Below are positions 17,872 through 50,178 of a DNA stretch of 64,000 nucleotides, one piece after another. The stretch spans positions 62,001 to 126,000 of the forward strand of contig JAHHHD010000014.1 of NCBI GenBank assembly GCA_019359505.1, in the 5' to 3' direction. The notes beneath the pieces were generated by a model. The model ran no database searches. It was given only the letters and a program-made list of their open reading frames with translations, and was not told the DNA's origin. This stretch comes from Drouetiella hepatica Uher 2000/2452 (GTDB lineage Bacteria > Cyanobacteriota > Cyanobacteriia > Elainellales > Elainellaceae). A program made the translations under genes and the position numbers. The stretch's first letter is position 1. Each line of letters begins with the position of its first letter.

Positions 17872-17944
17872 GCCACAGGCTTGCTGATTAGGTAGAGTGG
17901 TTGGTTTTGCTGTGAAACACCCATATCATTGAACGAAGGATCAA

Positions 17945-18082: not shown

Positions 18083-18098
18083 CAGGAATAGGCAACCC

Positions 18099-19700: not shown

Positions 19701-19738
19701 CATCAATTCTCACTTCTCGATCTTATCCATAATTTTCT

Positions 19739-22975: not shown

Positions 22976-24691
22976 ATGCCTAGCCCCTCAAAGAGACTGA
23001 TTTTATTCTTAGCCGCTAATCCTCAAAATTCTACTCCGCTACGTCTAGACCAAGAAGTGAAAGAAATCGAGGAAGGTCTGAAGCGATCGCAGAAGCGTGA
23101 TGAGTTTCAGCTAGAACAACAGTGGGCAGTTACAGCTAGAGACGTGCAGCGATCGATGCTAGACTTCAAGCCCAACATTGTTCACTTCTCTGGGCATGGT
23201 GTGGGACAGGGCGGACTGGCGCTTGAAGATGCCAATAAGCAGGTGAAGCTAGTTAGCGGCGAGTCTTTAGCCAAGCTATTTAAGCTGTTTGCCGATCGGG
23301 GTGTGGAGTGCGTTCTGCTCAATGCCTGTTATTCCGAGGTGCAAGCTGTAGCAATTGCCGAGCATATTCCCTACGTGATTGGCATGAGTCAGGCAGTGGG
23401 CGATGCGGCTGCCAGAGAGTTTGCTGTCGGGTTTTATGATGCCTTAGGAGCCGGAGAATCGATCGAGTTTGCCTTTGAGAATGGCTGTATCAGCATTAGC
23501 TTGGCGGGCATCCCCGAAGATTTGACGCCCGTTCTACGACGGAAACTAGATTCGGGTGCTCTAATTCAGCCCCTTATGAGTGTCGCTCCACCCATTCCAG
23601 TGAACGATCCACGCTCACTGGTAGTAGTCGAAGAGGCTGCTCCTCTCCCTCCAGCTCAAGCCTCCCTCCAACTTGACGTTCCCGAAGGTATGGTGAGCTT
23701 AGACTCGCAGCTATATGTTGAGCGTCCGCCCATCGAAGAAAACTGCTTTGAGACTATCCTTAAACCTGGCGCTTTGATTCGCGTCAAGGCTCCCCGGCAG
23801 ATGGGTAAATCGTCATTGATGCAGCGAATTTTGCAACATGCCAACCAAAAGGGACACCGCACGGCACATATTAATTTTCAGTCAGTCGATGCCGATTTTC
23901 TGACCAGCCTTGACCAGTTCTTACAGTGGTTTTGCGCCACCGTCGCTGATGCACTGGGGCTAGAAGATAGGCTAGCCACTCAGTGGAAGGGAATTTTGGG
24001 CAGCAAAAACAAATGCAGTAACTATTTTCAGCGCTATTTGCTCCAAGAGATTCCGGGATCGCTAACGCTGGCACTAGATGAAGTCGATCAAGTGTTCCAA
24101 CACCTGGAAATTGCCGACGGCTTTTTTAGCTTGCTGAGAGTTTGGCATGAGAACGGTAAAAACGATGATATTTGGAAAAAATTCCACCTGGTGATTGCTC
24201 ATTCTAAAGAAGTCTACATTCCACTCAATATCAACCAATCTCCCTTTAACGTCGGCTTACCGATCGAGCTACCTGAACTCAACGCCGCGCAGATTAGCGA
24301 ACTTGTGCACCGGCATCAGCTGAACTGGGGCGATCGTGAAATTCAGCAGTTGAAGAACGTTGTCGATGGGCATCCCTATCTGCTGCGAAGGGCGCTCTAT
24401 GAGATCGCCAGTGACAATATCACTCTGCCGCGTTTCCTGGAGATCGCTGCTACTGATGCTGGCCCCTTTTATGACCATCTACGGCGGCATCTACTCAACT
24501 TGCAGAACGATCCCAAGCTCGAAGCAGCCATGAAGACAGTGATTGCCAGCGATCAGCCAGTGCGGATTGATCAAACTCAAAGCTTTAAGCTGCGCAGCAT
24601 GGGGCTAGTAGAGCTACGCGGCAGCGACGTCATGCCTCTGTGCAATCTATACCGTGACTACTTCCGCGATCAGTTAGGAGTCAAAGTGTGA
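22976..24691 (+). CDS. CHAT protease - AAA-like NTPase (operon 1, gene 1)
   Basis: ATG 22976 is preferred to TTG 22961 because the paralogue at 33273 starts at the equivalent place. Residues 5-190 are a CHAT domain (His74 in [11 protein letters not shown], Cys118 in VLLNACYSE). After a Pro-rich linker, residues ~235-565 form an AAA-like domain (AAA_35 type): [19 protein letters not shown], Walker [12 protein letters not shown] (~271-281), Walker [13 protein letters not shown], then [20 protein letters not shown] and a [13 protein letters not shown] arm. No membrane segment or sensor repeat is present. Its stop overlaps the GTG of the next gene (GTGA), so it is co-translated with the AAA-WD40 protein. 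The likely role is a protease output unit whose NTPase domain interacts with that of the sensor (inference). Confidence 0.9.
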
Positions 24692-27600
24692 GTGCTCCCC
24701 AACCCCTCTATGAGTACCAAGTAGGCGGCAGCCTTCCTGTAGATGCACCCTCCTATGTCAGCCGTCAAGCCGATCGCACGCTTTATGAAGGACTGCGATC
24801 AGGCGAGTTTTGCTACGTTCTCAACGCCCGCCAAATGGGGAAATCCAGCTTGCGGGTACAGACAATGCGGAACCTGAAAGCCGAGGGCATTGCCTGTGCG
24901 GCAATCGACATTACCAGCATTGGCACTCTAGATATGCTGCCAGAGCAGTGGTACGCTGGGATAATTGATAGCTTGGTCAACAGCTTTCGGCTTTATAATG
25001 GCTTCGACTTGGGATCATGGTGGGAAGCCAACGCGCTGATTTCTCCAGTGCAGAAGTTCAGCAAATTTTTGGGCGAGGTGTTGCTCTGCTCCCTTCCTGG
25101 TGACGTTGTTATCTTTGTCGATGAGATCGACAGCATTCTGAGCTTGGAGTTCAACAGCGACGACTTTTTTGCCGTTATCCGCGACTGCTACAACAATCGA
25201 GCTGATCAGCCTGATTACCGTCGCTTAGCCTTTGCCATCATTGGTGTAACCACTCCCTCAGACCTAATTCAGGACAAACGCCGGACTTCATTTAATATTG
25301 GTCGGGCAATTGAGCTGAGTGGCTTCAGCTTGTCCGAGGCAGACCCTTTACTTCCGGGTCTTGCGACCAAAGCTGAGAATCCGCAGACGGTTATGCGCGA
25401 GATTCTCAGCTGGACGAGCGGGCAGCCATTTCTAACGCAGAAAGTCTGTCAGATGGTGCGGAATTCGGCGTTTCCGATCGCTGCAGGTGCTGAAGGCGAG
25501 TGGATTGCCAACTTGCTTCAACATGCCGTGATCCACAACTGGGGATCGCAGGATGAACCCATACATTTAAGAACAATTCGAGCACGGATTATGGACAGCA
25601 GTGCCCAAAGAACAGGGCGGCTACTAGGGCTCTATCAGCAGATCTTGCAGCAAGGAGGCATTCCTACAGACGACAGTCCAGAGCAAATGGAGCTACGGCT
25701 ATCTGGGCTGGTTGTCAAGCGGGATGAGCAGCTACAGGTTTATAACCGTATCTATGAATCGGTGTTTGATTTAGATTGGGTGAACCAATCGCTAGAAAAT
25801 TTGCGTCCCTATGGTGAAGCGCTATCTGCGTGGGTAGAGTCGGGCTATGAAGACGAGTCGCGCCTCTTCCGTGGGCAGGCGCTCGTTGATGCTCAGTCAT
25901 GGGCAGCAGGCAAGAGCTTAAGCGATCTGGATTATCAGTTTTTAGCAGCAGGTCAGACGATCGATCGCCGAGATGTGGAAACCCGCTTAGCAGCCGAATC
26001 AGCAGCGCGATCGCTGTTGGCAAAGGCAAACAAGAAAGCCAATCGTCGCGTTTGGTTAGGGACAGTCATATTGGCAGCAACATTAGCAGGGGCGATCGTA
26101 GCTGTAATTACTGCCTGGCAAAGCACTTCAACCGCTAAACAGCAGGTAGCAGCAGCAACACAAGACAAAAATAAGCTTGAGCAGGAAAAGCAAAAGATTC
26201 AGCAGGAGGCAGATTTGGCTCTAAAGAGAGCGGAGGGGCGCAAGCAGCTGGCTGAAAAAAAGCTACAGCTGGCTGACCAGAATCTAGAAACTGCCAAGCA
26301 ACGGGTAGCAGCAGCAACACAACAGCTTCAAAGTTCGCAGCTTCAGGCTGCTAAAGCCGAGCAAAATCAACAGCAGGCTCAGCAGCAGGTACAAGAAGCT
26401 AAGGCAAGCCTGCAAGTGGCACAGCAGTATCAGCAACAGGCGGCTTTGGCTTATGTAGTGGCTCAACGTGAAACAGCAGCAGCTCAACGTGAGACAGCGA
26501 CCGCTCGGCAAGGAACGACGTTAGAGCGGGAAGGAACGTCAATCTCGCGCCGATTAGATGCCAATGGTGCCAAAATTGGGGAAATTGAGGCCCTGTCTGC
26601 GGTGCTTCCCTTGGCGGAGCAGCTTAAGCAGATTGTTGGAGCAGCTCCATTGCAGAATTATCCAGCTTTTAGTCCTTTTTCTACGTTGCAGAAAGTACTG
26701 TACCGAAACCTGTATCAGCCCGAGCAGTTCAGCGAGCAGAACCAATTTGAGGGGCATGGTCAGTGGATTAGGAGCGTCAGTTTTAGCCCAGATGGACAGA
26801 CGATCGCTACAGCCTCTGGAGATGGAACGGCGCGATTATGGCAGCGATCGGGAAAACTTATCCAAGAGTTCCCAGGAAATCAGGTGGGCGTTTGGAGCGT
26901 CAGCTTTAGCCCCGATGGACAGCAGATCGCCACTGGGTCACAGGATGGCATTGTTCGCCTGTGGCAGCGATCGGGGGAATTAATTGCAACATTTCAGGGC
27001 TCTCAAGCGCCCGTTAGCAGCGTTAGTTTTAGTCCAGATGGGCAGCAGCTTATCACGGCATCATTGGACGGCAGCGCTCGACTATCAAGTCGATCGGGAG
27101 AACTCATCCAGGAATTTAAAGGGCATGAAGAGGGCGTTTGGAACGCTACTTTTAGCCCTGATGGACAGACGATCGCAACTGCATCAGGAGATGGGACAGT
27201 GCGGCTGTGGAACAAAACTGGAGAACAGATTCGATCGTTTAAGGCGCATGAGAAATTGATTTGGAGCGTCAGTTTTAGCCCCGATGGGCAGCAGATCGCT
27301 ACTGCCTCCGATGATAATACCGCTCGGCTATCAAACCTGATGGGAGAACTCATTCAAGAATTTAAAGGGCACGAAGGAGCCGTGTATGCCATCAGCTTTA
27401 GCCCTAATGGACAACAGATTGTGACTGCTTCTGAAGATCGGACGGTTCGACTATGGAGTCGATCGGCAGACTTAATTCAGGAATTTAAGGGACATCAGGG
27501 AGGTGTTTGGGGCGTCAACTTTAGTCCTGATGGTCAACAGGCTGTCACTGCTTCAGGCGATGGCACTGCTCGATTGTGGAGTCGATCGGAAGGGTCAAGT

Positions 27601-28599
27601 CATGAACTGAAGGGACATCAGGAAGCGGTCTGGAGCGCCAGCTTTAGCCCTGATGGTCAACAGATTATTACTGCTGCGGGAGATAGTACTGCCAGACTGT
27701 GGAGTCGATCGGGAGAACTGCTTCATGAGTTTAAGGGGCATCAAAAATGGGTAAGAAGCGTCAGTTTTAGCCCAGACGGACGAGAGATTGCCACCGCGTC
27801 CGATGATGGCACAGCTCGATTATGGCGCGTGACGGGAGAACTGCTTCATGAGTTTAAAGGGCATCAAGCAGGCGTTTGGAGCATCAGCTTTAGCCCCGAT
27901 GGACGAGAGATTGTCACCGGATCAAGAGATGGCTCGGCTCGTCTGTGGAATGTAACTGGAGACCTGATCACTGAATTGAAGAGCAATCATAGTGGGGTTA
28001 ACAGCGTAAGTTTTAGTCCCAATGGTCAGATGATTGCCACTGGCTCAGACGATAGTACTGTTCAACTCTGGAGCCGCACCGGAGAGTTGGTGAAGGAGTT
28101 TGCAGAGAGAGAGGCAGCTGTTTGGAGTGTGAGCTTTAGCCCTGATAGTCAACAGATTGTCACTACGTCAAACAATAGTGGAGCTGTTCGGCTACGGAGT
28201 CTGACGGGAGAACTGATTCAGGAGTTTAAAGGTCATCAAGGAGTCGTCTGGAGCGCCAGTTTTAGTCCCGACGGTCAGCAGATTGCAACTGCATCAGACG
28301 ATCGCACGGTGCGACTGTGGAGTCGGACAGGAGATTTAATCCTAGAACTCCCAGGTCATCAGGGAGCCGTCTACAGCGCCAGCTTTAGTCCCGACGGACA
28401 GCAGATTGTCACGGGATCGATCGATCAAACTGCGCGGTTATGGCAACTGTATAGCTTAGAAGATCTAATTCAACGCGGTTGTGGCTGGCTCAATAATTAT
28501 TTAGCAACTCATGCCGAGGCACAAAATGTTTCGCAGTCCTGCCAAGCTTCTACTCAATTACCAAATCAATTAATGGCGGCTCCAAATTCAAGCAGATAA
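24688..28599 (+). CDS. AAA-like NTPase - TM - coiled coil - 14-blade WD40 protein (operon 1, gene 2)
   Basis: Residues 1-375 are an AAA-like STAND NTPase: [20 protein letters not shown] opening, Walker [10 protein letters not shown] (46-54), Walker [10 protein letters not shown] (Asp145/Glu146) and [11 protein letters not shown]. One membrane segment follows (~455-477), preceded by KKANRRVW, so the N-terminus is predicted inside. Residues ~480-625 are Gln/Ala/Glu-rich coiled coil. Residues ~688-1265 contain 14 WD40 blades ([12 protein letters not shown]...LW), i.e. two seven-bladed propellers. The tail carries a Cys pair (GCGWLNNYL ... SQSC) and the blades contain no other Cys. By the positive-inside rule the propellers lie outside the cytoplasm. 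The GTG start overlaps the CHAT-AAA stop by 4 bases. Confidence 0.92.
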
Positions 28600-28637
28600 A
28601 ACAAGGCACCCGAAAAACTCTATACCCCTAAGTTTCT

Positions 28638-31600
28638 ATGAGCGTTGTCCCTAGCCCCTCATACCCATACCAAGTTGGCGGCAGCTTGCCGATAGATGCC
28701 CCCTCTTATGTTCACCGAAAAGCCGATCGCAGCCTCTATGAAGCCCTGAAGTCAGGCGAGTTTTGCTATGTCCTCAACGCCCGACAAATGGGTAAATCGA
28801 GCCTCCGGGTTCAGACAATGCAGCGGCTCAAAGCTGAGAACATTGACTGTGCGGCGATTGACATCACCAGCATTGGCACGGCAGACATCACGCTAGAACA
28901 GTGGTATGGCGGAGTCATTGACAGCTTAATCAACAGCTTTAACCTGACTGAGAGCTTCGACCTAGAAGCTTGGTGGGCAGAACATCCGCTGATTTCTCCA
29001 GTGCGGAAGTTTAACAAGTTTCTGGGTGAAGTATTGCTGCAGCAACTCTCTGGCAACATCGTCATCTTCATTGATGAAATTGACAGTATCTTAAGCCTTG
29101 ACTTTAACAGCGACGACTTTTTTGCCGTTATCCGTGACTGCTATAACAACCGAGCTGATCAACCCGATTATCGCCGCTTAGCCTTCGCAATCATTGGTGT
29201 TGCTACTCCCTCGGATCTGATTCAAGACAAACGCCGTACGCCCTTTAATATTGGGCAGGCGATCGAGCTAGGTGGCTTTAGCTTATCTGAAGCTGATCCG
29301 CTTCTACCGGGTCTCGCCACAAAAGCCGAGAACCCACAGGCTATGATTCGAGAGGTTCTCAATTGGACAGGCGGACAGCCGTTTCTGACTCAGAAAGTCT
29401 GTCGGTTGGTGCGAGACTCAGCTTTTCCTATTACTGCCGGGGCCGAACAGGAGTGGCTTGCCAATCTGTTACAACACGCTGTCATCTACAACTGGGAGTC
29501 TCAGGATGAACCTGAACACCTCAAAACAATTCGCAATCGGATTACCTACAGCTCTTCTCGAGGAACAGGGCGGTTGCTGGGGTTGTATCAGCAGATTTTG
29601 AGGCAGGGCAAAGTTCTAGCAGATGATAGTCCCGAGCAAATGGAACTACGACTGTCGGGGTTGGTTATGAAGCAAAGGGAACACCTGAAAATCTATAACC
29701 GCATTTATGCAGCAGTCTTTAACCAAGAATGGACAACTAACTTATTAGCAGCCTTGCGTCCCTATGCCGAAGCTTTAGAGGCATGGGAGGAGTCGAACTT
29801 TCAAGATGAGTCCCGTCTACTGCGAGGGCAGGCCTTGCAAGAGGCTTTAGCCTGGTCAGCCAGTAAAAGTTTAAGCAATGTTGATAATCAGTTTTTAAGG
29901 GCTGCTCAGGAATTGGATAGACAGGAGGTGCAACTGACGCTACAAGCTGAAAAGCAGGCTAAGAAAGCTGCTGAATACAGAATTAAATCTCAAATAAGAA
30001 TGGTGGCGATGGTCGGTTTACTAGCTGCAGCGTTGGCAATGGCGATCTTCAGCGTTCAGCTCGGCTTTGAGCGAAATCAGGCCCAAACCTCTGAAATTAA
30101 AGCCCTAAATGCCTTGTCAGACTCCCAGCTCCTTTCAAATAAACAGCTCGAAGCGCTAGAGTCGAGCGTCAGGGCTGGAGAGAGTTTGTCTAAGCTGGGA
30201 ACACAGCCTGAGATTCAAGCAGAAACAGAAGACCAAATGCGGGCGACGATTTATGGGGTTCAGGAATGGAATCGTCTACAAGGTCATGAAGCCGACTTAT
30301 GGAGCGTTAGCTTTAGCCCGGATGGCAAAATGATTGCTTCATCAGCCTTCGACAAAACAATTCGGCTTTGGAACCCCGAAGGACGGTTGCTCAGAACGTT
30401 GACCGCGCACACCGATGGGGTCGTCAGCATCCGGTTTAGCCCAGATGGTCAAACGATCGCCTCAGCCAGTCACGACCGGACAATTAAGCTATGGCGAGTG
30501 GCAGATGGACGGTTACTCAAGACGCTTTCAGGACACAGCAATCGCGTCAACAGTATTGCGTTTAGTTCAGATGGTCAAATGATTGCTTCAGCCAGTGCTG
30601 ATGGCACTCTTAGGCTTTGGCAAGTGAAAGACGGGCGTTTGCTCAGAACTTTTCCGACCTGTGTCAGTACTGAGAAATCTTGCCAAGGTCATAAAGGCGA
30701 GGTTCTGGGCGTTAGTTTTCATCCTGATGGCACAATCCTTGCTTCTGCTGGTGAAGACAAACGAATTAAATTTTGGAGTACAAAAGGCCTCCTGTTACGA
30801 ACGATTGAAGGATGTAAAGAAGGAGATAAAAATGCTGGAAATTGCCGAGGACATTACGCGTTAGTTCAAGGACTGAGCTTTAGCCCCAATGGAAAATTCC
30901 TGGTGTCGGCAGGTGCAGATAGTACGGTGCGATTGTGGAAATCTAATGGAACCTGGATTAAAACACTCAATAGCCATTTAGATGTAGTCAAGAACGTTAA
31001 CTTTAGCTCAGACGGACGTTTCTTTGCGACGGCTAGCTCTGATAGTACCATTAAGCTCTGGACGGCAGATGGTCTATTGCTGAAAACTTTTAGGGGGCAT
31101 AATGGACCCGTTACAGGCGTCAGTTTCTCGCCCGATGGCAAAACTTTAGTTTCTGCTGGCTACGATAAAACAGCAAGGCTTTGGAAAGCTGAGCCTTTGC
31201 CTCTGGTTGCAGTACGGGCACATCTTGACGGTGTAAAGAGCGTCAGTTTCTCTCCTAACGGTCAACTTTTGGCTTCGGGAGGAGCCGATAATTCGGTGAA
31301 ACTCTGGAGATCAGATGGAACCCTGCTCAAGACCTTGGAAGGTTGTTTACCAGAAGCCAAAAGCTGTGCAGGGCATAGTAATATTGTCAATAGCGTTAGA
31401 TTTTCTCCCAATAGCCAGCTTTTGGCTTCAGTCGCAACTGACAACCGGGTGAAATTATGGAAGAGTGATGGCACCTTACTGAAAACGATCGAGAGTTGTC
31501 CGGGAAATACCAAGGATTGTAAGGGTCATACTATATCGGTTAGGAGTGTGAGCTTCAGCCCTGACGGCAAAATTCTAGCGACATCAAGCGACGACAAAAC

Positions 31601-32243: not shown

Positions 32244-32306
32244 TTGCATTCAGAGCCTATCCGGTTAATTAGTTTTCTGCGACCTTCAACCCCGAACTGC
32301 TGCTCT

Positions 32307-32927
32307 ATGAAAAGAACTATCCTAATCCTTGCTGCCAACCCTCAAAGTACCGGCCGTTTGAGGCTCGATCGCGAAGTGCGTGATATTGAAGATGGATTGC
32401 GGCGATCGAAATTTCGCAATCGGTTTCAGTTAGAGCAGCGATGGGCAGTGGAGCCGCGAGATATACAACGAGCCATGCTAGAGGTGAAGCCGCACGTCGT
32501 GCATTTCTCAGGGCATGGCGAAGGCGATGCAGGTCTAGTGTTTCAGGACGTGATGGGGCAAATTAAGCTGGTTAGCTCAGAAGCTCTGTCTGGCTTGTTT
32601 GCGCTATTTGCCGATCGCGTAGAGTGCGTCTTGCTAAATGCTTGCTATGCGGAAGTGCAGGCAGAAGCGATCGTTCAACACATTAACTACGTAATTGGAA
32701 TGAAGCAGGCTGTGCGAGATGATGTCGCCATTACTTTTGCCGTTGGATTTTACGAGGGGTTGGGCGACGGCTTGTCGATCGAAGCAGCTTTTGAGCAGGG
32801 AAAACAGGCAATCCAGACAATGCTAGCTGGTGGTGGCATTGCTCGGAAGCTATCTGTTGTTCTACCGGATGATTCCCCTGCGCCGCTTCCAGACTCTTTA
32901 ATTCCTGTTTTGAAATGCAAAAATTGA
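32307..32927 (+). CDS. solo CHAT protease (operon 1, gene 4)
   Basis: The ATG at 32307 gives a 206-residue protein starting MKRTILILAANPQ exactly where other CHAT domains start; a TTG at 32244 would add 21 unrelated residues. It is essentially only the protease domain, with His70 in VVHFSGHGEGD and Cys113 in VLLNACYAE and the usual INYVIGMKQAV and FAVGFYEGLGDG blocks. It ends in the IPVLK motif that closes most CHAT domains here. It lies 63 bases behind the WD40 gene and is probably the last gene of operon 1, perhaps a free protease activated by the membrane NTPases. Confidence 0.88.
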   Translation: MKRTILILAANPQSTGRLRLDREVRDIEDGLRRSKFRNRFQLEQRWAVEPRDIQRAMLEVKPHVVHFSGHGEGDAGLVFQDVMGQIKLVSSEALSGLFALFADRVECVLLNACYAEVQAEAIVQHINYVIGMKQAVRDDVAITFAVGFYEGLGDGLSIEAAFEQGKQAIQTMLAGGGIARKLSVVLPDDSPAPLPDSLIPVLKCKN

Positions 32928-33272
32928 CTGAGTTCGCGCTACGACTATGAATCAATCAAGTAACCGTTAGAAGCAACAAAGCGAGGAAGGTTTCATGCGT
33001 CTCCGAAAAGCTTTTTCTTAAGGAAAAGTTTTGTTTGCAGCGATCGGTCACTCTTAAAGCTAAGATTGGGCAACTTATATTACGCAATTATATGGGGGAT
33101 AGGGCAGAGGCAGCCCACTAAGGCTGGTGAACACACTATCTGGTGTGAATAACTTTTTAGCTTATTTGGAACGTTTGGGCAGGGAGCAGTTAGACTACTT
33201 GACTGCTGTTTCATCAGATGTCAAGCAGTAAACAGAGACGTAATTTTTACATAAATCAAGCCAGAGTGAACT
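32928..33272. other. gene-free region between operon 1 and operon 2
   Basis: About 345 bases separating the solo CHAT gene from the second CHAT-AAA gene. I see no open frame of interest, no strong hairpin and no repeat; it presumably carries the promoter of operon 2. Confidence 0.6.
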
Positions 33273-34964
33273 ATGCCTCCCTCAGCTAAAAGGAAAAAGA
33301 CGACCATCTTGTTTTTGGGTGCAAATCCTGCAAACTCCGATCGCCTTGATTTAGAAACAGAGGTCAAGGAGATCAGTGCCGAACTGGAAAGAGCACAAAA
33401 GCGAGATAAGTTTGTCTTAAAGATTAAGATGGCGGCACAGACGAGAGATATTCAGTCTGCCCTTTTAGAGTTTAAACCCCAAATTGTGCACTTTGCAGGT
33501 CATGGTGTTGACCAAGCCGGACTTGTCTTTGAAGACGCGAGTGGTCAAGCCAGGCTAGTAAATGGGGTCGCATTGGCAGCGGTATTCAAACTGGTTGAAA
33601 GTTTTGTGGAATGTGTTGTTTTAAATGCCTGCTATTCTGAGCAGCAAGCAGCAGCCATTGCCCGATATATTCCATATGTAATTGGCACCAGTCAGAAGGT
33701 AGGCGATGGAGTCGCAAGGGCATTTTCATTTGGCTTTTATAATGCCCTAGGATCGGGTGAACTTTATGAATCTGCCTACAACTGGGGCTGTAGCAATATT
33801 GGGATGGAAGGCTTCTCTGATATCCCCACCCCGATTTTGAAGCGCAAGAGCGAAGAACCTGAAGTTATTGAACCGATCGAGCTTTTGCCAGAACTGGTTG
33901 CTATTCCACTGGGTCCGGTTCGGGACTTCGAGCTTTTTCCATTCATTATTGACGTACCAGAGGGTTCAATTAGCACTGATTCACCCCTGTATATCGATCG
34001 CCCACCGATTGAGCAAGAGTGCTATGAGGCCGTCTTAAGACCGGGCGCACTCATCCGGATCAAGGCACCAAGACAGATGGGTAAGACCTCCTTACAGCAG
34101 CGAATCTTGCACCGTGCTGAAGAAATTGGGCATAAAACCGGATACATCAACTTCCAGCTCGTTGATCCAAAAGTCTTAACAGATTTAGATAAGTTTCTGC
34201 AATGGTTTTGTCGAACTGTTACGGATGCATTGGAGTTAGAAGACAAGCTAGAAGACCACTGGAAGCCTATGCTCAGCACCAAGGTAAGATGTACAAACTA
34301 TTTCCAGCGATACCTTCTCAAGGAAGTTTCGGGTTCCTTGACACTAGGCTTGGATGAAGTAGATCAGGTCTTTCAACACTTGGAGATCGCTGATGGCTTT
34401 TTTAGCCTGCTGCGTGTTTGGCATGAACAGGGCAAAAACCAAGAAATCTGGAAGAAACTTCGTCTAGTTATTGCCCACTCGAAGGAAGTTTATATTCCGC
34501 TCAACATCAATCAATCTCCTTTTAATGTCGGACTACCGATTGATCTACCCGAACTTACCCAACCACAGGTTACGGAGCTAGTCAGGCTACACGGCTTGAA
34601 CTGGTCAATGGCGCAAGTCAAGCAGTTGATGAGTGTTGCGGATGGACATCCCTATCTGTTGCGGAAAGCCCTTTACGATATTGCGAAAGGAAACCTAACA
34701 TTAGAGAAATATTTGCAGGTGGCTTATACCGAAGAGGGGCTGTATGGCGACCATCTCAGCCGTCACCTTCATAATTTGAGAGAAGATTCTAGTTTATCTG
34801 CTGCTATGCGTCGAGTTGTGATGGCAGATGAACCCGTGCAGTTAGATCAAAACTACGCCTTTAAGCTCCGTAGCATGGGGTTAGTAGAACTTTCTGGAAA
34901 CAACGTGATTCCACTTTGTAACTTGTATAAAGTCTATTTTCGCGATCGCTTAGGAGCCAATTAA
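33273..34964 (+). CDS. CHAT protease - AAA-like NTPase (operon 2, gene 1)
   Basis: A full-length paralogue of the protein starting at 22976. CHAT domain residues ~8-200 (His77 in IVHFAGHGVDQ, Cys120 in VVLNACYSEQ), a short linker, then the AAA-like domain from ~228: DVPEGSISTDSPLYIDRPP, Walker [12 protein letters not shown], Walker [13 protein letters not shown], and the nearly invariant block [20 protein letters not shown]. Its TAA overlaps the ATG of the following WD40 gene by one base (TAATG). The pairing with an AAA-coiled coil-WD40 protein repeats operon 1 exactly. Confidence 0.9.
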   Translation: MPPSAKRKKTTILFLGANPANSDRLDLETEVKEISAELERAQKRDKFVLKIKMAAQTRDIQSALLEFKPQIVHFAGHGVDQAGLVFEDASGQARLVNGVALAAVFKLVESFVECVVLNACYSEQQAAAIARYIPYVIGTSQKVGDGVARAFSFGFYNALGSGELYESAYNWGCSNIGMEGFSDIPTPILKRKSEEPEVIEPIELLPELVAIPLGPVRDFELFPFIIDVPEGSISTDSPLYIDRPPIEQECYEAVLRPGALIRIKAPRQMGKTSLQQRILHRAEEIGHKTGYINFQLVDPKVLTDLDKFLQWFCRTVTDALELEDKLEDHWKPMLSTKVRCTNYFQRYLLKEVSGSLTLGLDEVDQVFQHLEIADGFFSLLRVWHEQGKNQEIWKKLRLVIAHSKEVYIPLNINQSPFNVGLPIDLPELTQPQVTELVRLHGLNWSMAQVKQLMSVADGHPYLLRKALYDIAKGNLTLEKYLQVAYTEEGLYGDHLSRHLHNLREDSSLSAAMRRVVMADEPVQLDQNYAFKLRSMGLVELSGNNVIPLCNLYKVYFRDRLGAN

Positions 34965-37900
34965 TGAGCACTGTCCCTTCCTCTATCTATACTTACTACG
35001 TTGGAGGAAGCTTACCCGTCGATGCTCCAAGCTATGTCTACCGTCAAGCCGATCGAGATTTATACGAAAGTCTGAGAAATGGTGACTTTTGTTATGTTCT
35101 CAACGCACGACAGATGGGAAAATCGAGTTTGCGTGTTCGTACAGAAGAGCGTCTGAAGGCGCAGGACGTTGCCTGTGCCACGATCGACATTACCAGTATC
35201 GGCACCTCAGATATTACACCAGAGCAGTGGTACTTTGGCGTGATTGATACGCTAATCAACGGATTTGAGCTTTACAACACGTTCGATTCTTCTGCTTGGT
35301 GGGAGGAAAATCGCTTACTGTCGCCTGTCCAGAAGTTCAGTAGATTTCTGAAAGACATCCTCCTAGCACAGATAGGTCAGGCAATTGTCATCTTTGTAGA
35401 TGAGATTGACAGCGTCTTGAGTTTGCCGTTCAACATTGATGATTTTTTTGCGGTGATTCGGGATTGCTACAACAATCGCGCCAATCAGCTCGAATATCGT
35501 CAGCTGACCTTTGCGTTGATTGGCGTTGCAACGCCATCAGACTTGATTCAGGATAAGCGACGCACCCCATTCAATATTGGACGGGCGATCGAACTCACGG
35601 GCTTTAGTTTGCATGAGGCAGAGCCACTCCTACCGGGATTAGCAACCAAGGCAGAAGATTCGCAGTCAGTGCTACGAGAAATCTTGGCATGGACAGGTGG
35701 ACAACCTTTTTTGACCCAGAAAGTCTGTCGATTGGTGATGGCATCCTCCTTCCCGATCGCGGCTGGAGCCGAAACAGACTGGGTGGCGAATCTGATGCAA
35801 AATACAGTGATCGATCGCTGGGAAACCCAGGATGAGCCAGAGCATCTAAAGACCATTCGTAACCGGATTTTGTACAGCAACGCCCAGCGGACGGGGCGGC
35901 TTTTAGGGCTATATCAGCAGGTGTTTCAGCGAGGTAGCGTGACAGCAGACGATAGCCCAGAGCAGATGGAACTGCGACTATCAGGGCTAGTGGTGCGGCA
36001 AGAGGGCAGGCTACAAATCTATAACTTAATCTATGCTGCGGTGTTTGATCTGGCATGGGTAGATCAGGAGCTAGCTAATCTGCGCCCCTATGCAGAGACC
36101 TTCAGTGCATGGGTGGAGTCTGGTTTTACAGATGAGTCGCGCTTGCTACGGGGGCAGGCATTAGTTGATGCTCAGAGTTGGGCAACTAATAAAAGTCTCA
36201 GCAATCAAGATTACCATTTTTTAGATGCTAGTCGAAGTCTAGAACGCTCAGAATTTGAACGTAACTTAGATGTCGAGAAGCAATCAAATCAGTTACTGAC
36301 AAGTGCTAACCGTAAAGCCAGAAAACGAATACGCTTTGGTGTTTATATTTTAATCACAGCGTTGGCTTTAGCAATGTTAGCTGGTTGGTGGGGTAGACAA
36401 TCTATTGTCGAAGCTCAAAGTCAAATTCAAAATGCAGAAGAAACTATCCACAGCAACGAATTGCAGATCGAAAAATCACAGCGGGAACTTTCTAGTACTC
36501 GTAACCAAACTCAAAGGCAAATTGCTCAAGCAAAACAGGAGACACAAGCAGCTCAGGCAAAAATTAATCAGGCAAAGCAGCAACAGCAGTTAGTACAGGA
36601 GGCACGTGATAAAGCACAGCAGGAATTACGAACCGCACAACAGGAAAGGGGTAAACTTCAAGGGGACTTGCAACAGTTACTGAAAGATACAGAAGCTGCT
36701 CAGATGTTAGCTCAGCAAGCTAGAGCACAAGCTGGTGAGGAACGACAAAAAGCTGTAGAATCACAGCAAACTACTCAGATTACTCTTCAAGGAAATGCAA
36801 TTAACCAATTAGGGAATGTTGCTTTACAACAATTTGAGTCCGGAGAATTAGAGTCTTTGTTAACGGCGATACAGAGCGGAACAGCTTTACAGGAGCTAGT
36901 GAAATCACAAGGTGTATTTGACAAATCTCCAGCATTTAGTCCATTATTAGCGCTTCAAAAAATACTCGACAATATTTCCGAGCAGAACCAACTCCTTGGA
37001 CATCAAGGTTGGGTAAGAAGGGTCAGATTCAGTCCAGATGGCAGATTAATTGCGACAGCTGGTTCAGACGGAGTAGTTAAATTATGGGATGTCCTAGGGC
37101 AGCCTATAAAGACGTTTGAGCGCTACCATCGCAGTATCTTAGACATGAACTTTAGTTCCACTGGAAGGTTTATTTTGACAGCCGGTGATGATGGTGTAGC
37201 TAGGCAATGGAATTTGTCTGGAGAGGTTTTAAACACATATGATCATCAGGAAGTTGTTCAAGCTGTAGTAATCAGCTCCGACGAGAAGCGAGTTGTTACA
37301 GTTGGCGGTGGAATAGCTAAAGTGTGGAATATAGCTGGTCAACAACAAGCATCTTGGCAAGCTTCTGAAAAAGAGCTTTACAGCATCAACTTTAAACCTA
37401 ATGATCAAAGCTTTATCACAGCAGGACTTGAAGGTAAAGTGCAGCAGTGGGATTGGTCTGGGCGAAAACTTATAGAGTTTGCAAGTGATCAAGGTGCCAT
37501 TTTGAGCGCTCAATTTGCTCCAGATGGAAGAACGCTTGCCACAGCCGGAAGTGATGGTTCTGTCAAATTGTGGGATCAAAATGGGCAACCACTCCTTACT
37601 TTAAAGGCACATAAGGGCTGGACAAGAGATATCAACTTTAGCTCAGATAGTCAGTCTTTTGCGACTGCTGGAGATGATGGAATAGTGAAGCTGTGGAATA
37701 TATCTGGTCAGCAAATAGCTGAATTAAAAGGGCATTTGGGTGGCGTATTGAATGTTCAGTTCAACTCTAATAATCAGCAGCTTGTCTCAGCAGGAACTGA
37801 TGGTACTGCAAGACTTTGGAATTTATCTGGACAACGCTTCAACTCAAATAGCTTTATTGCCCTTTCAAAATCTCAAGAGCCGGAAAATGACGTACGATGC

Positions 37901-39217
37901 GTTTCTTTGTATGCTCCTGGACTCTATCCAGAACGGGTTGCATCAGCATTATTTGACGACAATCGAGTTGGTAGGATTTGGTTAGAGAATCAATCCAATC
38001 AAGTAATTACAATTAAGCTGTATCATCCTGATTTACCGGGGGAAGCATGGGGAGAGTTTCTGGTAGAACCAAAGGCAACTTGGCTATATCCATTTGAGGA
38101 AGATGCTCCTGTTTTCGGTAGTGATTGGGGCATTCAAGTAGATAGCTCCAAGATCTGTATTCTTGGCAGAGTTGGAGAGTGGAGTTTACTCAATAGCAGA
38201 CATATCTTCAAAACTTCATCTAATCGATTTCCTAAAGGTAGTTCTTCTGGCAATCAAAACATTTTTGATACCCTTGATTTTAGCCCTGATGGTCAGCAGT
38301 TAGTGACAGGTGAGCTAAGTGGAAAAGTGAGCTTTTGGGACTTATCTGGCAGAAAATTGAGGGAATGGAAAGCTATACGGGGAGGAGTGCAAGGGGTTAG
38401 TTTTAGTCCAGATGGACGATATGTAGCTACTTCTTCTCCTCAGCGGGTGTTGCTTTGGAACATGTCTGGCGAAAAGATTGCTGAGTACAGTGCTTACAAC
38501 GTGAGCTTTAGTGGCAATGGCGAGCATTTAGCTATTGCGACACAAAGCGACTCAAATGATGTGATTCAAATTTGGCACCAGGCTACAGATCAGTTAATTA
38601 AAGAGTGGAATCCTTCCTTAGGAACTGAGGGAAAAATCAGTGTTTACAGCATGGACTTCAGTCCTGATACAAAATCCTTACTAATTGCAGGAACACTACA
38701 AGTTAATCTTTACAGCATTGTTGATAGTCCAATTCAGCTTTGGGATCTATCAGGAAATTTAATTACAGAATTTAAGGGACACCGAGGTGGGGTTTTAAGT
38801 GCAAAATTTAGTCCAGATGGACAGGCAATTGTCACAGGAGGAATGGACGGTACTGTTAGACTATGGGGTTCTCTGGGTGAACAGCTCAGTCAATGGAAGG
38901 CGCACAGGGGTTGGGTAAGAAGTGTTATGTTTCTAGACAATCGACGTGTTGCAAGTGTAGGTGATGACGGGCTGGTCAAAGTATGGACTCGGTCAGGACA
39001 GCTAACTGCTGAATTCAAGGGACATCGAAGCAAGATTAGCGGCATGGCGTTTGATTCGTCAAAGCAAATCATCGCAACTTCTAGCTATGACGGCTCTGTT
39101 CGTCTGTGGCAAATAGAAAACTTAGATGAACTTATATCGCGCAGTTGTGACTGGATAGATGCTTTTGAGAAAGCAAATAAGAACTATTTTTGCAAAAAAT
39201 TATCATCTGGTGATTAA
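34964..39217 (+). CDS. AAA-like NTPase - TM - coiled coil - double WD40 propeller with inter-propeller insert (operon 2, gene 2)
   Basis: Residues 1-375 are the AAA-like domain ([17 protein letters not shown], Walker [10 protein letters not shown], Walker [10 protein letters not shown]). The membrane segment at ~450-470 (YILITALALAMLAGWW) follows RKARKRIR. A Gln-rich coiled coil occupies ~475-610. Blades 1-7 of WD40 lie at ~680-960, and blades 8-14 at ~1105-1390. Between them, residues ~965-1090 form an extra beta-rich domain (VRCVSLYAPGLYPERVAS, ITIKLYHPDLPG, SDWGIQVDSSKICILGRVG) with two cysteines, which I cannot assign to a named family. The tail has the usual Cys pair (SCDWIDAF ... NYFC). 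It starts on the stop codon of the CHAT-AAA gene. Confidence 0.9.
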   Translation: MSTVPSSIYTYYVGGSLPVDAPSYVYRQADRDLYESLRNGDFCYVLNARQMGKSSLRVRTEERLKAQDVACATIDITSIGTSDITPEQWYFGVIDTLINGFELYNTFDSSAWWEENRLLSPVQKFSRFLKDILLAQIGQAIVIFVDEIDSVLSLPFNIDDFFAVIRDCYNNRANQLEYRQLTFALIGVATPSDLIQDKRRTPFNIGRAIELTGFSLHEAEPLLPGLATKAEDSQSVLREILAWTGGQPFLTQKVCRLVMASSFPIAAGAETDWVANLMQNTVIDRWETQDEPEHLKTIRNRILYSNAQRTGRLLGLYQQVFQRGSVTADDSPEQMELRLSGLVVRQEGRLQIYNLIYAAVFDLAWVDQELANLRPYAETFSAWVESGFTDESRLLRGQALVDAQSWATNKSLSNQDYHFLDASRSLERSEFERNLDVEKQSNQLLTSANRKARKRIRFGVYILITALALAMLAGWWGRQSIVEAQSQIQNAEETIHSNELQIEKSQRELSSTRNQTQRQIAQAKQETQAAQAKINQAKQQQQLVQEARDKAQQELRTAQQERGKLQGDLQQLLKDTEAAQMLAQQARAQAGEERQKAVESQQTTQITLQGNAINQLGNVALQQFESGELESLLTAIQSGTALQELVKSQGVFDKSPAFSPLLALQKILDNISEQNQLLGHQGWVRRVRFSPDGRLIATAGSDGVVKLWDVLGQPIKTFERYHRSILDMNFSSTGRFILTAGDDGVARQWNLSGEVLNTYDHQEVVQAVVISSDEKRVVTVGGGIAKVWNIAGQQQASWQASEKELYSINFKPNDQSFITAGLEGKVQQWDWSGRKLIEFASDQGAILSAQFAPDGRTLATAGSDGSVKLWDQNGQPLLTLKAHKGWTRDINFSSDSQSFATAGDDGIVKLWNISGQQIAELKGHLGGVLNVQFNSNNQQLVSAGTDGTARLWNLSGQRFNSNSFIALSKSQEPENDVRCVSLYAPGLYPERVASALFDDNRVGRIWLENQSNQVITIKLYHPDLPGEAWGEFLVEPKATWLYPFEEDAPVFGSDWGIQVDSSKICILGRVGEWSLLNSRHIFKTSSNRFPKGSSSGNQNIFDTLDFSPDGQQLVTGELSGKVSFWDLSGRKLREWKAIRGGVQGVSFSPDGRYVATSSPQRVLLWNMSGEKIAEYSAYNVSFSGNGEHLAIATQSDSNDVIQIWHQATDQLIKEWNPSLGTEGKISVYSMDFSPDTKSLLIAGTLQVNLYSIVDSPIQLWDLSGNLITEFKGHRGGVLSAKFSPDGQAIVTGGMDGTVRLWGSLGEQLSQWKAHRGWVRSVMFLDNRRVASVGDDGLVKVWTRSGQLTAEFKGHRSKISGMAFDSSKQIIATSSYDGSVRLWQIENLDELISRSCDWIDAFEKANKNYFCKKLSSGD

Positions 39218-39255
39218 AATCTTTGATTTGACTTGAACTATGACGAGGCAGGGCT

Positions 39256-42200
39256 ATGAGTTCGACTTTTCATCCTACATATATGTATCAAGTCGGCGGC
39301 AGCCTCCCTGCTAACGCTTCCACTTACGTTGAGCGCCAGGCCGATCGCGATCTCTACGAAGGACTTAAATCCGGACAGCTCTGCTACGTGTTCAACAGCC
39401 GTCAGATGGGTAAATCAAGCCTGCGCGTTCGTACAATTCAGCGTTTGCAGGCAGCAGGAATCACCTGTGCTGTCCTCGATATGACCGAAATCGGCACGTC
39501 AGACATTACCCCTGAACAATGGTATGCGGGCATCCTTGATCGCCTGCTCGATGGCTTTGAGCTAACCAATCGCTTTGACCTGGAAGCCTGGTGGGAGAGC
39601 CATGCGTTGATTTCGCCCGTGCAGCGCTTCAGCCTGTTCTTTGAAGAAGCGCTGCTCAAGTTTATCTCAGGGGCGATCGTCATCTTTTGGGAAGAAATCG
39701 ACAGTGTGTTTAGTCTGCCGTTTAATACCGATGATTTTTTTGCAATTCTCCGCACCTGCTATGACAAACGCGCTCTAAACTCTGAGTTTAATCGCCTCAC
39801 GTTTGCCCTAGTTGGAGTTGCTACCCCCACTGATTTGATTCAAGATCGCCGTCAGTCGCCTTTTAATCTGGGTCAAGGCATTGAGCTGAGCGGCTTAGAA
39901 CTCTCACACAGTCAGCATCTACTAGCTGGACTTGCTAGGGCAAGCGATCGCCCCGAAGCTCTATTGCAAAACATCTTTTATTGGACGGGTGGGCAGCCTT
40001 TTTTAACTCAAAGACTCTGTCGTTTGGTAATCGGACAATTGAGCCTTGATGGCTTTAAGGCTCAATTATCCCTCGATCGCCTAGTTCAGGAAAAGGTGAT
40101 TCAACATTGGGAAACGCAAGACGACCCGCCTCACTTCAAGCCGATTGCCGATCGATTACTGTGGAATGAAAAGCGGGTGGGACGATTGCTGGGGCTGTAT
40201 CAACAGATTTTGCAGTCGCCTGTTGCGCCGGATGGCTTGCCAACAGGAGCTACGGTAGATGATAGTCCAGAGCAGATTGAACTACGTCTGTCGGGGTTGG
40301 TTGTGCGTCGAGAAGGCTGTTTACGAATCTACAATCGCCTCTATGCGCTGATTTTTGATCAGGCTTGGGTCGATCGCCAGTTGGCTGAACTGCGTCCTTA
40401 CTCAGAATCTTTGACGGCGTGGTTGATTTCTAGCTGCATAGACGAGTCGCGCTTGCTGCGGGGGCAAGCATTGCAGGATGCGCTGGCTTGGGCAGCGAGT
40501 AAGAGCTTGAGCGATCGCGATTACCAATATTTAACTGCTAGCCAGGAGATTGATAAACGCGAGGCAGAGAGAGCACTACTTGCCGAAAAGAAGGCGAGAG
40601 AGCTTGAAAATCTGGAAGCAGAGATCAGACTCAAGGCACAGGAGAGCGAATTAGCCACACAAAAAAGAGCAAACCAGATTTTGACTGATGCTGCTGTCAA
40701 AGCTAACCGTAGGATTCGGATCAGCTTTGTTTTTTTAGGAGTATCGCTGGGTGTGGCGATCGGTGCTGGGCTAGCTGCCGAATATGCCTATGGGCAGCAG
40801 CAGAAAATTCAGGAAACCGCCAGTCTTGAGCAAGCTGGTTTAGCAACGCTTCAGCAGTTTGCAGGTGGAGATGAAATTGAATCGTTGCTGGGCGCCCTCG
40901 AAAGTGGATACCAATTGAAGCAGCTGATTGGAGAGGAGCGATCAAAGCAGTACTCCGTCGTGAATCCAATGCAAGCACTTCAGGCTATCTTGTCTCAAAT
41001 TCATGAGCAAAATGTGTTTCAGCATCCGGAAGGCATCCAATTTGCTGCATTCAGTCCCGATGGACAAAAAGTTGCCACAGTCAGTAAAGATGGGATGATC
41101 CGAATATGGAGTGCATCGGGGCAAAAACTATCCGAGTTTTCTGGAAAGCAAAAGATCCTGTATTCACTTGACTTTAGTCCGGATGGACAGCAGGTTGTTA
41201 CGGCAGGTCAAGATGGTACGGTACGGCTCTGGAGTCTTTTAGGTGATGAAATAACTGAATTTGAGAAGCAACCACAACCTGTTTACAACGTGAAATTTAG
41301 CCCAGATGGACAGAGGGTGGCGATCGCCAGTGGCAGTGGAGCAGTAAAGCTTTGGACACTTTCAGGACAACCGCTCCCAGGCTTTCAACTCAGCCAGGGA
41401 GAACTCTTAAGCCTTGATTTTAGCCCGGACGGAGAAAAGATCGTAACAGCGGGTAAAAACGGTACAGTGCACTTACTAAACCTCGCCAAACAACAGCCTA
41501 CAGAATTTAACGCTCATACCGGCTTGATTCGACAGGTTCGTTTTAGCCCCAACGGCCAACAGATTCTGACAGCAAGTGAAGATGGTACTGCCAAACTGTG
41601 GACACTTGAGGGTAAGCAGATTACTCAGCTCACTGGCAATGTAGGCTGGGTAATGAGCGCCAGCTTTAGTCCGGATGGCAAACAGATTGTCACCTCTGGA
41701 GAGTTAGGGATTACAAAACTTTGGAATTTGCAAGGTGAACTGTTGAGAGAGCTAAGGGGGCACAGCAATTTTGTGGGCAGCACCGACTTTAGCCCAGATG
41801 GAACAAGGCTAGTTACTGCTAGTGAAGATCGAACCGTTAGAATATGGAACCTCGCTGGCTCCCCTTCATTTCAATTCGTGGCGCATCAGAAGCCTGTGCC
41901 AGGACTCAGCCTTAGCCCTGATGGTCAAACAATCGCAACGGCTAGCAGCGATCGTACCGCCAAACTGTGGACACTTGATGGTAAGCCGCTTCAGGAATTC
42001 AAAGGGCACACCGATCGCGTCTTGAACGTTAACTTTAGTCCCGATGGTAAATCGATCGCAACTATTAGTACAGATGGCACTGCTAGACTTTGGGACCTCT
42101 CTGGTCAACAGCGTGCTGAGATGAAGGCAGAGGTAGGATTGTTTAGCACTCTTGCCTTTAGTCCCGATGGACAGAGGCTAGTGACTGCTGGTTCAGATGG

Positions 42201-42879
42201 CATGATTAGACTTTGGGATTTACAAGAGCATCAGCAGCTTGAATTTAGGGGAAGCGATCGTGGGCGGCTGTGGAGTGTCAGCTTCAGTCCTAATGGCCAG
42301 CAAATCGCAGCAGCAGGCGACGATGGTGTTGCTAAGCTTTGGACAAATTCAGGGCAGCTAATTACTGAATTCAAGACTTCTTCAGGAGATATCAGCACTA
42401 TCCAATTTAGCCCAGATGGACACACGATCGTAACTACGGGCGTAGAAGGCAAAGTGGTGCTGTGGAGCCTCACTGGAGAAAAGCTGGATGAATTCCGGGC
42501 ACATATCGGCAGAGTCAGGCGGGTCAGATTTAGCCCAGACGGTCAATTACTCGCTACCACCGGGGATGAGGGCTTAGTAAAAGTCTGGACGATAGCAGGA
42601 CGCCAGCTTGCAGAGTATAGGGGGCATCAACATGCAGCCAGAGGCATCAGTTTTAGCTTGGATGGAAAGCAGGTCATTTCAACAGGTGATGATGGCACTG
42701 TTAGACTCTGGCAAGTAAGCAGCTTAGATGATCTTTTAAACCAAGGATGCCGATGGCTCAAAGATTACCTTGCTAGTCATTCTGGTTCTCCTAATTCCTG
42801 TCCTCAAGCCATTCAAGTGTCGAGTATTCACAGTAGTGCTAACCGAATCATAATTACAGGAACCCAGCCGTTCAAATGA
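39256..42879 (+). CDS. AAA-like NTPase - TM - 14-blade WD40 protein with altered Walker B (operon 2, gene 3)
   Basis: It starts at ATG 39256, 38 bases behind gene 2, the same gap as in operon 1. The AAA-like domain has Walker [10 protein letters not shown], but Walker B reads VIFWEEIDS instead of VIF(V/I)DEIDS: the metal-binding Asp is Glu and the preceding residue is Trp. The arm domain is slightly longer than in paralogues. A charged helix (~440-480) leads to a membrane segment (~485-508) after KANRRIRIS. Fourteen WD40 blades follow, without cysteines, then the tail Cys pair (GCRWLKDYL ... PNSC). The altered Walker B suggests slowed or absent hydrolysis, perhaps a regulatory subunit (inference). 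Confidence 0.9.
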
Positions 42880-43526
42880 ATAACTACCTTCAGAAAACCA
42901 CGCTCTTCACACTCAGTGTATTGCTACTTACAGTTACAATCGCCGCATGTTCTTCCTCAACAACTTCAATCCCTCAAACTGATAATTCAATTCCCACAGA
43001 AACTCAACCCAAAGCTTCTCCGGCACCAGCCTCAAAGCCAGCATCACCAGCAGTAGCAGTAGAACCCGATCGTTCTGTCGATTTAGATGATGTAGCTCCC
43101 CAGTCTAAGTCAAAGGCAACCACTCCAGCCGCAGACCCTATCATTGAGCGAATTTCCAGAGACCAAAATCTACCTCTTGAGCCGTCAAGACCTAATCCTG
43201 TAGAACCCCAGATGCCAGAACCTACAATGCCAGAACCTATAATGCCAGAACCTCAGATTTCACAACCTCAGATATCAGAACCTTGGGAACCCCTGCCAAC
43301 AGAACCTACTCCAGAACCTCCCTACGCACCGCAAACAGAGCTATCTGACGTATCTGAGCCAGAAGTTATGATCTTGCCAGATATAATTCCAGAATCTGCA
43401 CTAGAAGATTACTCTGATCAGCCTCCTTCAGAAATTGATTCTCAGTCACAGCTAGCGGAACCGAGCCAGGAGTCTCAAGGTTCAGAGCCTCAAGCTCCAG
43501 AGCCAGGAATTTCACGGCAATACTAG
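42876..43526 (+). CDS. Pro/Glu-rich lipoprotein (operon 2, gene 4)
   Basis: The start overlaps the WD40 gene stop by 4 bases (ATGA). The N-terminus is a lipoprotein signal: [17 protein letters not shown], then [10 protein letters not shown] with the lipidated Cys. The mature part (~190 residues) is disordered and rich in Pro, Glu, Gln and Ser, with short repeats such as [13 protein letters not shown] and PTEPTPEPP. There is no catalytic motif. Translational coupling to a protein whose sensor is predicted outside the cytoplasm suggests it reaches or contacts those propellers at the membrane surface (inference). Confidence 0.82.
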
Positions 43527-50083: not shown

Positions 50084-50178
50084 CTTTACCTTGCTACTAA
50101 GTGATGAGAATCGTGAGCAAACCTAAACTTGAGCCAATGACCTACTCGGATAACCTGCTTGATTAATTTGCGGCTTTT

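Follow-up and report, generated by a model that had tools for sequence, protein, structure and literature searches.

A putative split STAND switch encoded by two tandem operons of the cyanobacterium Drouetiella hepatica

The closest described relatives of the proteins considered here are the STAND NTPases of the NLR and apoptosome kind, which include Apaf-1, CED-4, the plant TIR-NLRs and the Avs proteins, and we compare these with a pair of NTPases encoded by Drouetiella hepatica Uher 2000/2452 in a stretch of 64,000 nucleotides (JAHHHD010000014.1, positions 62,001–126,000, forward strand; referred to below as the window). The + strand of the window has two operons in succession, and each consists of a CHAT-AAA_35 gene (A), an AAA_35-transmembrane (TM)-coiled coil-WD40 gene (B), an AAA_35-TM-WD40 gene (C) and an unrelated fourth gene (Table 1). 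AAA_35 is Pfam family PF14516, and more generally we refer to proteins with a variable output followed by AAA_35 as type A, and to those with AAA_35 followed by an optional TM segment and a sensor as type B. We consider it likely that the products of each operon form a split STAND (NLR-like) switch, with the sensor and the effector carried by separate partner NTPases. There is perhaps an even chance that such pairs form an undescribed two-protein signalling class, where the places of histidine kinase and response regulator are taken by a sensor STAND and its dedicated effector STAND, with a conserved STAND–STAND contact coupling many external or internal sensors to protease, TIR, kinase, cyclase or DNA-binding outputs, and with the version in the window being a membrane-spanning caspase-like 'split apoptosome'.

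Both NTPase modules resemble the STAND, NLR and apoptosome proteins in their predicted fold and in their GxP and Walker motifs; the N-terminal position of the effector is also shared, and the WD40 sensor is like that of Apaf-1. However, NLR and apoptosome proteins combine effector, STAND module and sensor in a single chain, whereas here these are divided between two NTPase proteins which behave as fixed partners, with CHAT found only on A and the propeller only on B, and the predictions for most sensor halves are of a membrane anchor and an external propeller. In plant sensor–helper NLR pairs such as RRS1/RPS4 and the NRC networks, one STAND protein senses and another executes, and the two are sometimes encoded by adjacent genes. 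The A/B pair shares this division between two STAND proteins, but each partner has half of the architecture while the plant partners are whole NLRs.

The pair is also like two-component systems in having sensor and output genes paired in operons, interchangeable sensors (CHASE2, Cache-HAMP-PAS and GAF) and outputs, and mirrored trees. It differs from them in that the sensors are joined to AAA_35/STAND, which some proteins carry at the C-terminus, in the position expected for a kinase core. The 25 families listed for the A N-termini did not include Response_reg, and HisKA/HATPase or receiver domains were likewise missing from the matches listed for the window proteins, the A N-termini and ten B representatives, although with lists of limited length there may be rare exceptions; a phosphorelay is not implied for the A/B pair. 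The SAVED-CHAT protease filament (8tl0) has a CHAT domain with aligned His and Cys motifs, but in A the CHAT domain is joined to a STAND module instead of SAVED (no SAVED domain was found in A1 or A2, which matched CHAT and AAA families only, and the alignment with 8tl0 covers only the CHAT part of the latter).

The NTP-dependent conflict systems of multicellular prokaryotes (Kaur et al. 2020, PMC7159879; Kaur et al. 2021, PMC8195603) include ternary systems built on a MoxR-vWA couple together with VMAP, iSTAND, FtsH or propeller proteins, and the A/B pair is similar in being cyanobacterial and NTPase-centred with variable effector and signalling modules, and in that one A protein carries EAD1. 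In contrast to these systems, the window operons have no MoxR-vWA couple, as neither family was listed for the eight open reading frames (ORFs) of the two operons to which this search was confined, and the terms 'CHAT' and 'AAA-like' do not occur in the text of PMC7159879 that was searched. Our literature search, with a coverage that mostly excluded subscription papers and preprints, found no description of the A/B pairing.

We surveyed 96 genomes of the cyanobacterial class including the source genome, of which 63 matched AAA_35 and 62 the B profile (this second tally may include A modules matching weakly). From the matches listed we took 143 A and 139 B modules, and absolute counts are therefore lower bounds. 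The A set includes AAA_35 matches down to 176 bits, while for the B set we left out 12 matches (three second pieces of split matches and nine below 175 bits) and added one from the source genome. Among the other 95 genomes, both types were listed in 52, only A in two, only B in two, and neither in 39 (including six with only weak or unlisted AAA_35 matches), and this co-occurrence has a Fisher p of ~9e-22 with phylogeny ignored. Seventy of the 139 listed B modules start no more than 300 bases downstream of a same-strand A module and another 15 do so within 1.5 kb, giving 85/139 with a same-strand upstream A at that distance against a chance expectation of ~0.08 same-strand A/B cases (assuming 5 Mb genomes), and 120/139 have an A within 15 kb in any arrangement.

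At the level of ORFs we identified 90 adjacent A/B pairs from 44 genomes and 34 genera, and 79 of these are in tandem on the same strand, where the gaps have a median of 16 bases and do not exceed 100 bases in 59 cases. Separate A and B profiles distinguished the two types well in 159 fetched loci plus the window, with 142 ORFs scoring higher as A and 145 as B, where these numbers include fragments and one B–A fusion ORF that scores high on both. A further sample of 80 named loci, which were the best 80 of 565 confirmed A1 relatives and all had cyanobacterial titles, placed B directly downstream of 67/82 A ORFs, with three more lacking the room for it (two of the 82 are short fragments and one of these was counted as paired). 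It should be noted that the two samples share clades and are not independent replicates.

The trees of the paired modules are also mirrored, with a correlation between the A-module and B-module trees over the 90 pairs of r = 0.80, while shuffling the partners within genomes gave values that averaged 0.34 and never exceeded 0.69 (0/2000 shuffles reached 0.80). This form of shuffling retains the species signal and involves the 21 genomes having more than one pair, and both trees are quick trees with many weak forks. As co-inheritance of linked genes alone could mirror trees, this argues for a stable partnership rather than for contact. Stronger evidence of partnership than the mirrored trees is provided by natural fusions, of which we found at least three among 195 genomes searched (few candidates were scored per genome). 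One is a 904-residue ORF in which a nucleotide cyclase is placed between the B and the A module, and the others are B–A fusions of 763 and 738 residues from two other genomes of one other family; all three are filled by the B module, the A module and, in one, the cyclase, leaving no room for a propeller.

What the two modules are attached to varies considerably. We examined 128 A N-termini in which 60 or more residues precede the AAA module (the window was excluded) and Pfam identified TIR_2 in 43, Pkinase in 15, HTH_26 in 14 and CHAT in 13, with Guanylate_cyc (7), GerE (3), EAD1 (1) and Trypsin_2 (1) being rarer. Local profiles applied to 131 A proteins, this time including those of the window, gave 45 with TIR, HTH-like groups of 39 and 28, 17 with CHAT, 15 with kinase and eight with cyclase, and TIR is frequently combined with another output. 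The tree of 134 A modules (119 labelled) requires at least 22 changes of output class, compared with ~59 for 30 shuffled label sets. On the sensor side, Pfam found WD40 in 68 of the 122 B sensor regions scanned, and ten representatives chosen mainly from the remainder included CHASE2 (two), triple GAF, dCache-HAMP-PAS, HAMP, Pkinase-AAA_16-GAF-PAS, TPR, LRR-Roc-COR-TIR and WD40, with one having no match. The AAA module is C-terminal in 8/118 long B proteins, and in the four of these with Pfam data the preceding part ends in PAS, HAMP, GAF-PAS or GAF, like the region that precedes the core of a histidine kinase. For the sensor class, the tree of 135 B modules (107 labelled) requires at least 15 changes.

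With CHAT on 17/131 type A proteins and WD40 on 68/122 B sensor regions, we rejected both CHAT as the constant effector and WD40 as the constant sensor, and the constant part is the AAA_35–AAA_35 pair rather than the protease or the propeller. The original prediction, made from the window alone, was of a coupled CHAT and propeller system engaged in protease signalling, to be checked by the adjacency of its two gene types in other cyanobacteria. The two types are mostly found together and the coupling extends far beyond the window, but the CHAT and WD40 domains are not constant parts of it, and protease signalling is a reasonable reading for these two copies and not for the family as a whole.

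No solved relative of the PF14516 AAA part was found by sequence, and we modelled A1 (571 residues, 39 aligned sequences) with a predicted local distance difference test score (pLDDT) of 84.8 and a predicted template modelling score (pTM) of 0.57, for which reason the placement of CHAT relative to the STAND module is not reliable. The model of B1 residues 1–530 (38 sequences) had a pLDDT of 86.9 and a pTM of 0.74. In structural comparisons the nearest matches to both AAA modules were 2qen and 2fna (Z scores of 20.3–21.3), which are archaeal ATPases that we take to be STAND-like, with 2qen giving Z 21.3 for A and 20.4 for B. These were followed for the A module by the plant NLR RPP1 (18.8), CED-4 (17.6), Apaf-1 (15.2), Avs5 (14.2) and MalT (13.3), and for the B module by RPP1 (16.9), CED-4 (15.8), Apaf-1 (14.5), MalT (13.4) and Avs5 (13.2), with Avs3 and Avs4 also found among the matches. 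On the basis of these models both modules appear STAND-like in overall fold, beyond a generic P-loop, which agrees with the original assignment.

A GxP motif after the NTPase core is characteristic of STAND proteins, and its Pro is present in 216/216 A and 185/185 B modules, as is the Walker A Lys in 213/216 and 185/185, respectively. The Walker B Glu is found in 183/185 B modules but in 177/216 A modules (25 of the 39 A modules without it are of the HTH class), which suggests that B may be a more committed ATPase than A. The CHAT domain of A1 shares 28% identity with that of SAVED-CHAT 8tl0 over 186 aligned residues (Z 21.1), and the His and Cys of its HFSGHG and LNACYS motifs align with the 8tl0 motifs, indicating a predicted caspase-like fold with catalytic His and Cys motifs. 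Topology predictions for 118 WD40-type B proteins placed the N-terminus inside in 87 and outside in four, with nine tied, which is consistent with the cytoplasmic AAA module and external propeller originally proposed.

We infer from this that A and B would be in direct contact and that signalling would run from B to A. B (and C) would be the sensor, a cytoplasmic STAND NTPase joined via one TM helix to a propeller across the membrane, and A the effector, a STAND NTPase bearing the output, which in these operons would be a CHAT caspase-like protease. A signal acting on the propeller might switch the B STAND module to another nucleotide or oligomer state, whereupon B may recruit or open its dedicated A partner by STAND–STAND contact, and the ensuing clustering would gather the CHAT domains and render the protease active on its substrates, with D1 a possible extra protease subunit. 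Elsewhere in cyanobacteria the same AAA–AAA core is combined with TIR, Ser/Thr kinase, nucleotide cyclase, HTH and trypsin outputs and with CHASE2, Cache-HAMP-PAS, GAF or TPR sensors, through which an external or internal signal might drive it. The environmental-type sensors (CHASE2, Cache-HAMP-PAS and GAF) argue for general signal transduction, and those pairs that have TIR or CHAT may act in cell death or defence. If this is correct, it would provide a role for PF14516 and place a widespread module with separable STAND halves between bacterial two-component systems and the NLRs of animals and plants. It would also open to experiment the question of how an external propeller could activate a caspase-like protease within the cell, and that of where the effector–sensor modularity of NLRs may have originated.

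A number of observations weigh against a split STAND switch. On the listed contigs, 19/139 B and 33/143 A modules have no partner within 15 kb (contig ends may explain part of the 33), and in the second sample B is missing from the locus for 7/82 A ORFs and lies further away for 5/82. Of three plasmid copies of A examined, one had consecutive AAA-like genes, one a gene for a TIR protein ahead of one for a TPR-repeat protein, and one no AAA-like neighbour. In the window itself A3 and B3 are solitary (no B gene was found within 15 kb of A3), and with B3, C1 and C2 the sensor-type genes exceed the A genes, making stoichiometry and partner choice ambiguous. The mirrored trees could reflect linked co-inheritance without A–B contact, and the ORC/Cdc6 proteins score nearly as high as the NLRs in the structural comparisons (Z up to 18.0 for A and 17.2 for B), such that the exact clade within the wider group is not settled. 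The protease activity of CHAT is predicted from its motifs and fold. Finally, no TM segment was detected in 18/118 WD40-type B proteins, and at a stricter threshold the long B proteins with an N-terminal AAA module divide into 75/110 with a TM segment and 35/110 without.

An alternative that we regard as possible, if somewhat unlikely, is that the pair serves in anti-phage or self/non-self conflict, with the propeller or another sensor detecting an invader and the output killing or stalling the cell; the original prediction had drawn an analogy with conflict systems. The TIR and CHAT outputs, the matches of A1 and A2 to the PADLOC chat model, and the presence of Avs3, Avs4, Avs5 and plant NLRs among the structural matches would fit such a role, as would the patchy distribution (neither gene is listed in 39/95 genomes), the presence of A in 37/72,556 plasmid records, one copy of which adjoins restriction genes, and an HSDR_N-like ORF lying between A and B in 16 loci of the second sample (one was tested by Pfam). 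However, when we used PADLOC to compare 140 of 445 flanking ORFs (37,677 residues) with 140 of 211 control ORFs (47,354 residues) from 20 hand-chosen regions in pair-carrying genomes, there was no clear enrichment of defence families, with 41 models found among the flank proteins and 34 among the controls, and the most-matched model found in no more than two flank proteins compared to no more than five controls; this is a coarse comparison of small samples and the 25 commonest families per set. Pfam matches to the flanks, for which there was no control, were to scattered families including two PemK toxins and two integrase cores. A was absent from 50,697 phage records and had two IMG/VR matches (one full-length at 35% identity and one short), and many of the sensors are of the ordinary environmental kind listed above while many outputs are HTH, kinase or cyclase domains. 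A defence-island setting for the A/B pairs is not supported by this small flank comparison.

It is also conceivable, but in our view unlikely, that B is a negative regulator which holds a toxic or catalytic A inactive at the membrane, with loss of B or of the tether releasing A. Tight operons with overlaps of 1–4 bases would suit the fixed stoichiometry this demands, and A is seldom listed without B, but then B is equally seldom listed without A (2/95 genomes in each case), the Walker B Glu retained by almost all B modules goes beyond the need of a passive antidote, and many of the outputs (HTH, kinase and cyclase) are not obviously toxic. We find it quite improbable that linkage serves only co-expression or modular shuffling, with A and B acting independently and each AAA module forming homomers. 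Some A and B genes are solitary or at separate sites, and five genomes belonging to the same family (f26) each have one strong A and one strong B at distant sites, with the B frame of one of these (G044) interrupted by three stops; yet all five keep both genes and B is uninterrupted in four, the mirrored trees exceed every within-genome shuffle, and A and B are fused as one polypeptide in three genomes. A split switch with partner STAND proteins remains our preferred reading of the two window operons.

Table 1. AAA_35 genes and their operon neighbours in the window (coordinates are window positions).
Gene	Coordinates	Strand	Description
A1	22976..24691	+	Putative effector subunit; CHAT ~aa 1–190, linker, STAND/AAA_35 ~aa 232–571
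B1	24688..28599	+	Putative sensor subunit; STAND/AAA_35, TM ~aa 457–475, long coiled coil, WD40 (13 stretches)
C1	28638..32243	+	Putative second sensor-type subunit; AAA_35-TM-WD40 (14 stretches) without long coiled coil; closest relative B1
D1	32244..32927 (frame)	+	Solo CHAT; HFSGHG and LNACYA motifs conserved
A2	33273..34964	+	Putative effector subunit; CHAT-STAND/AAA_35 (Pfam); sister of A1 in the A tree
B2	34964..39217	+	Putative sensor subunit; STAND/AAA_35-TM-coiled coil-WD40 (7 stretches by Pfam)
C2	39256..42879	+	Putative sensor-type subunit; AAA_35-TM-WD40 (12 stretches); divergent, Walker B is EE and not DE
D2	42876..43526	+	Proline-rich lipoprotein-like protein; no Pfam match
B3	43914..47525	+	Further sensor-type AAA_35-TM-WD40; directly downstream of operon 2, no A gene directly upstream
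A3	60199..63990	-	CHAT-AAA_35 with long N-terminal extension; no Pfam match in first 680 aa

The ORFs and Pfam matches bear out the gene order and coordinates originally given for both operons, including the variable fourth gene, which is a solo CHAT in one operon (D1, probably starting at the ATG of MKRTILIL) and lipoprotein-like in the other. The A1/B1 overlap of four bases, the A2/B2 overlap of one base and the 38-base spacer between genes 2 and 3 in both operons are likewise as described, and we note that the two spacer sequences differ. The long coiled coil following the TM segment is visible by eye in B1 and B2 only, again as predicted, with a weak SMC match at residues 479–623 of B2, and in each AAA-TM-WD40 gene of the two operons there is a single strong hydrophobic segment after the AAA module. 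The original prediction had omitted B3 and A3, as well as a further A/B couple which lies at the end of contig C20 and is among the 11 AAA_35 matches of the 6.4 Mb source genome.

A1 matches both CHAT (4.5e-13) and AAA_35 (1e-138) in Pfam, and the AAA_35 scores of A1 and A2 are 462 and 460 bits, respectively. B modules are far more distant from this family, with A1 and B1 sharing 21.5% identity across the AAA region, and among the 25 families listed for each of B1, C1, B2 and C2, AAA_35 appears only for B2 (96 bits). A search of the source genome alone with PF14516 gave 370–473 bits for A modules and 86–104 bits for B modules, including all five AAA-TM-WD40 genes of the window, plus 44 bits for one B cut by a contig end. 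No NCBIfam model reached its cut-off in the eight window proteins tested, and a promoter and terminator scan found fewer sites than in shuffled sequences and provided no usable signal.

The original proposal that genes 2 and 3 were duplicated together is not supported for gene 3 by the identities and trees. Across the AAA region B1 shares 74% identity with C1 and 70% with B2, compared to 56.5% between C1 and C2. In a tree of 45 AAA sequences B1 and C1 are sisters (support 99/94) within a B1, C1 and B2 clade (100/100), with C2 placed elsewhere. A single C1 and C2 clade was moderately rejected by an approximately unbiased (AU) test (p 0.031), with the caveats that C2 has a long branch and that this test was chosen after the tree was seen, and a B1 and B2 clade was not rejected (AU p 0.275). 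A1 and A2 are sisters in the A tree (support of 86 by the SH-like approximate likelihood ratio test, SH-aLRT). The simplest account is that the A–B couple was duplicated, with C1 a local copy of B and C2 older; alternatively, the AAA region of C1 was converted by B1, which would give the same tree picture.

Several of the loci from other genomes have features of their own. The ORF found between A and B in 16 loci of the second sample is conserved at ~208 residues (162 in one case) and nearly all of these loci have a CHAT-type A; the copy at L220:7062–7688 matches HSDR_N (5.8e-7) and a similar-looking ORF from L041 had no Pfam match. A single open frame of 962 residues (G134:C62:138240–140828) contains two tandem A-type AAA modules. 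The 1073-residue A protein at L214:3772–6993 has a Peptidase_C25-matching region (24.6 bits, cut-off 23) before CHAT-AAA_35 and is possibly a two-protease output. At L276:292–3228 (- strand) it is the B protein, adjoining an A gene, that carries a cyclase domain, indicating that domains of the output type can be transferred to the sensor half. B proteins from L051, L054 and L180 have in common a C-terminal region of ~390 residues (no Pfam match was found for this in L051), and in 3/3 adjacent pairs with this type of B region the A proteins are cyclase-TIR proteins.

Other CHAT and caspase genes are abundant in the region, with the density of caspase-like genes high across window positions 6938–20401 and 48014–60182. 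C14 caspases are found at 6938, 19739 and 48014, a CHAT-NACHT gene at 9160, CHAT with HEAT repeats at 13429, and genes judged CHAT-like by reading at 56955 and 58992. A CHAT-WD40 frame on the + strand (18099–18407 and 18408–19700) is broken by an in-frame TAG just before the catalytic Cys motif, with six WD40 stretches in the downstream half, and this may be a pseudogene, a case of recoding or an assembly error. The Peptidase_C14 caspase gene which follows it on the same strand is apparently split over two overlapping frames (19739–20401 and 20398–21465).

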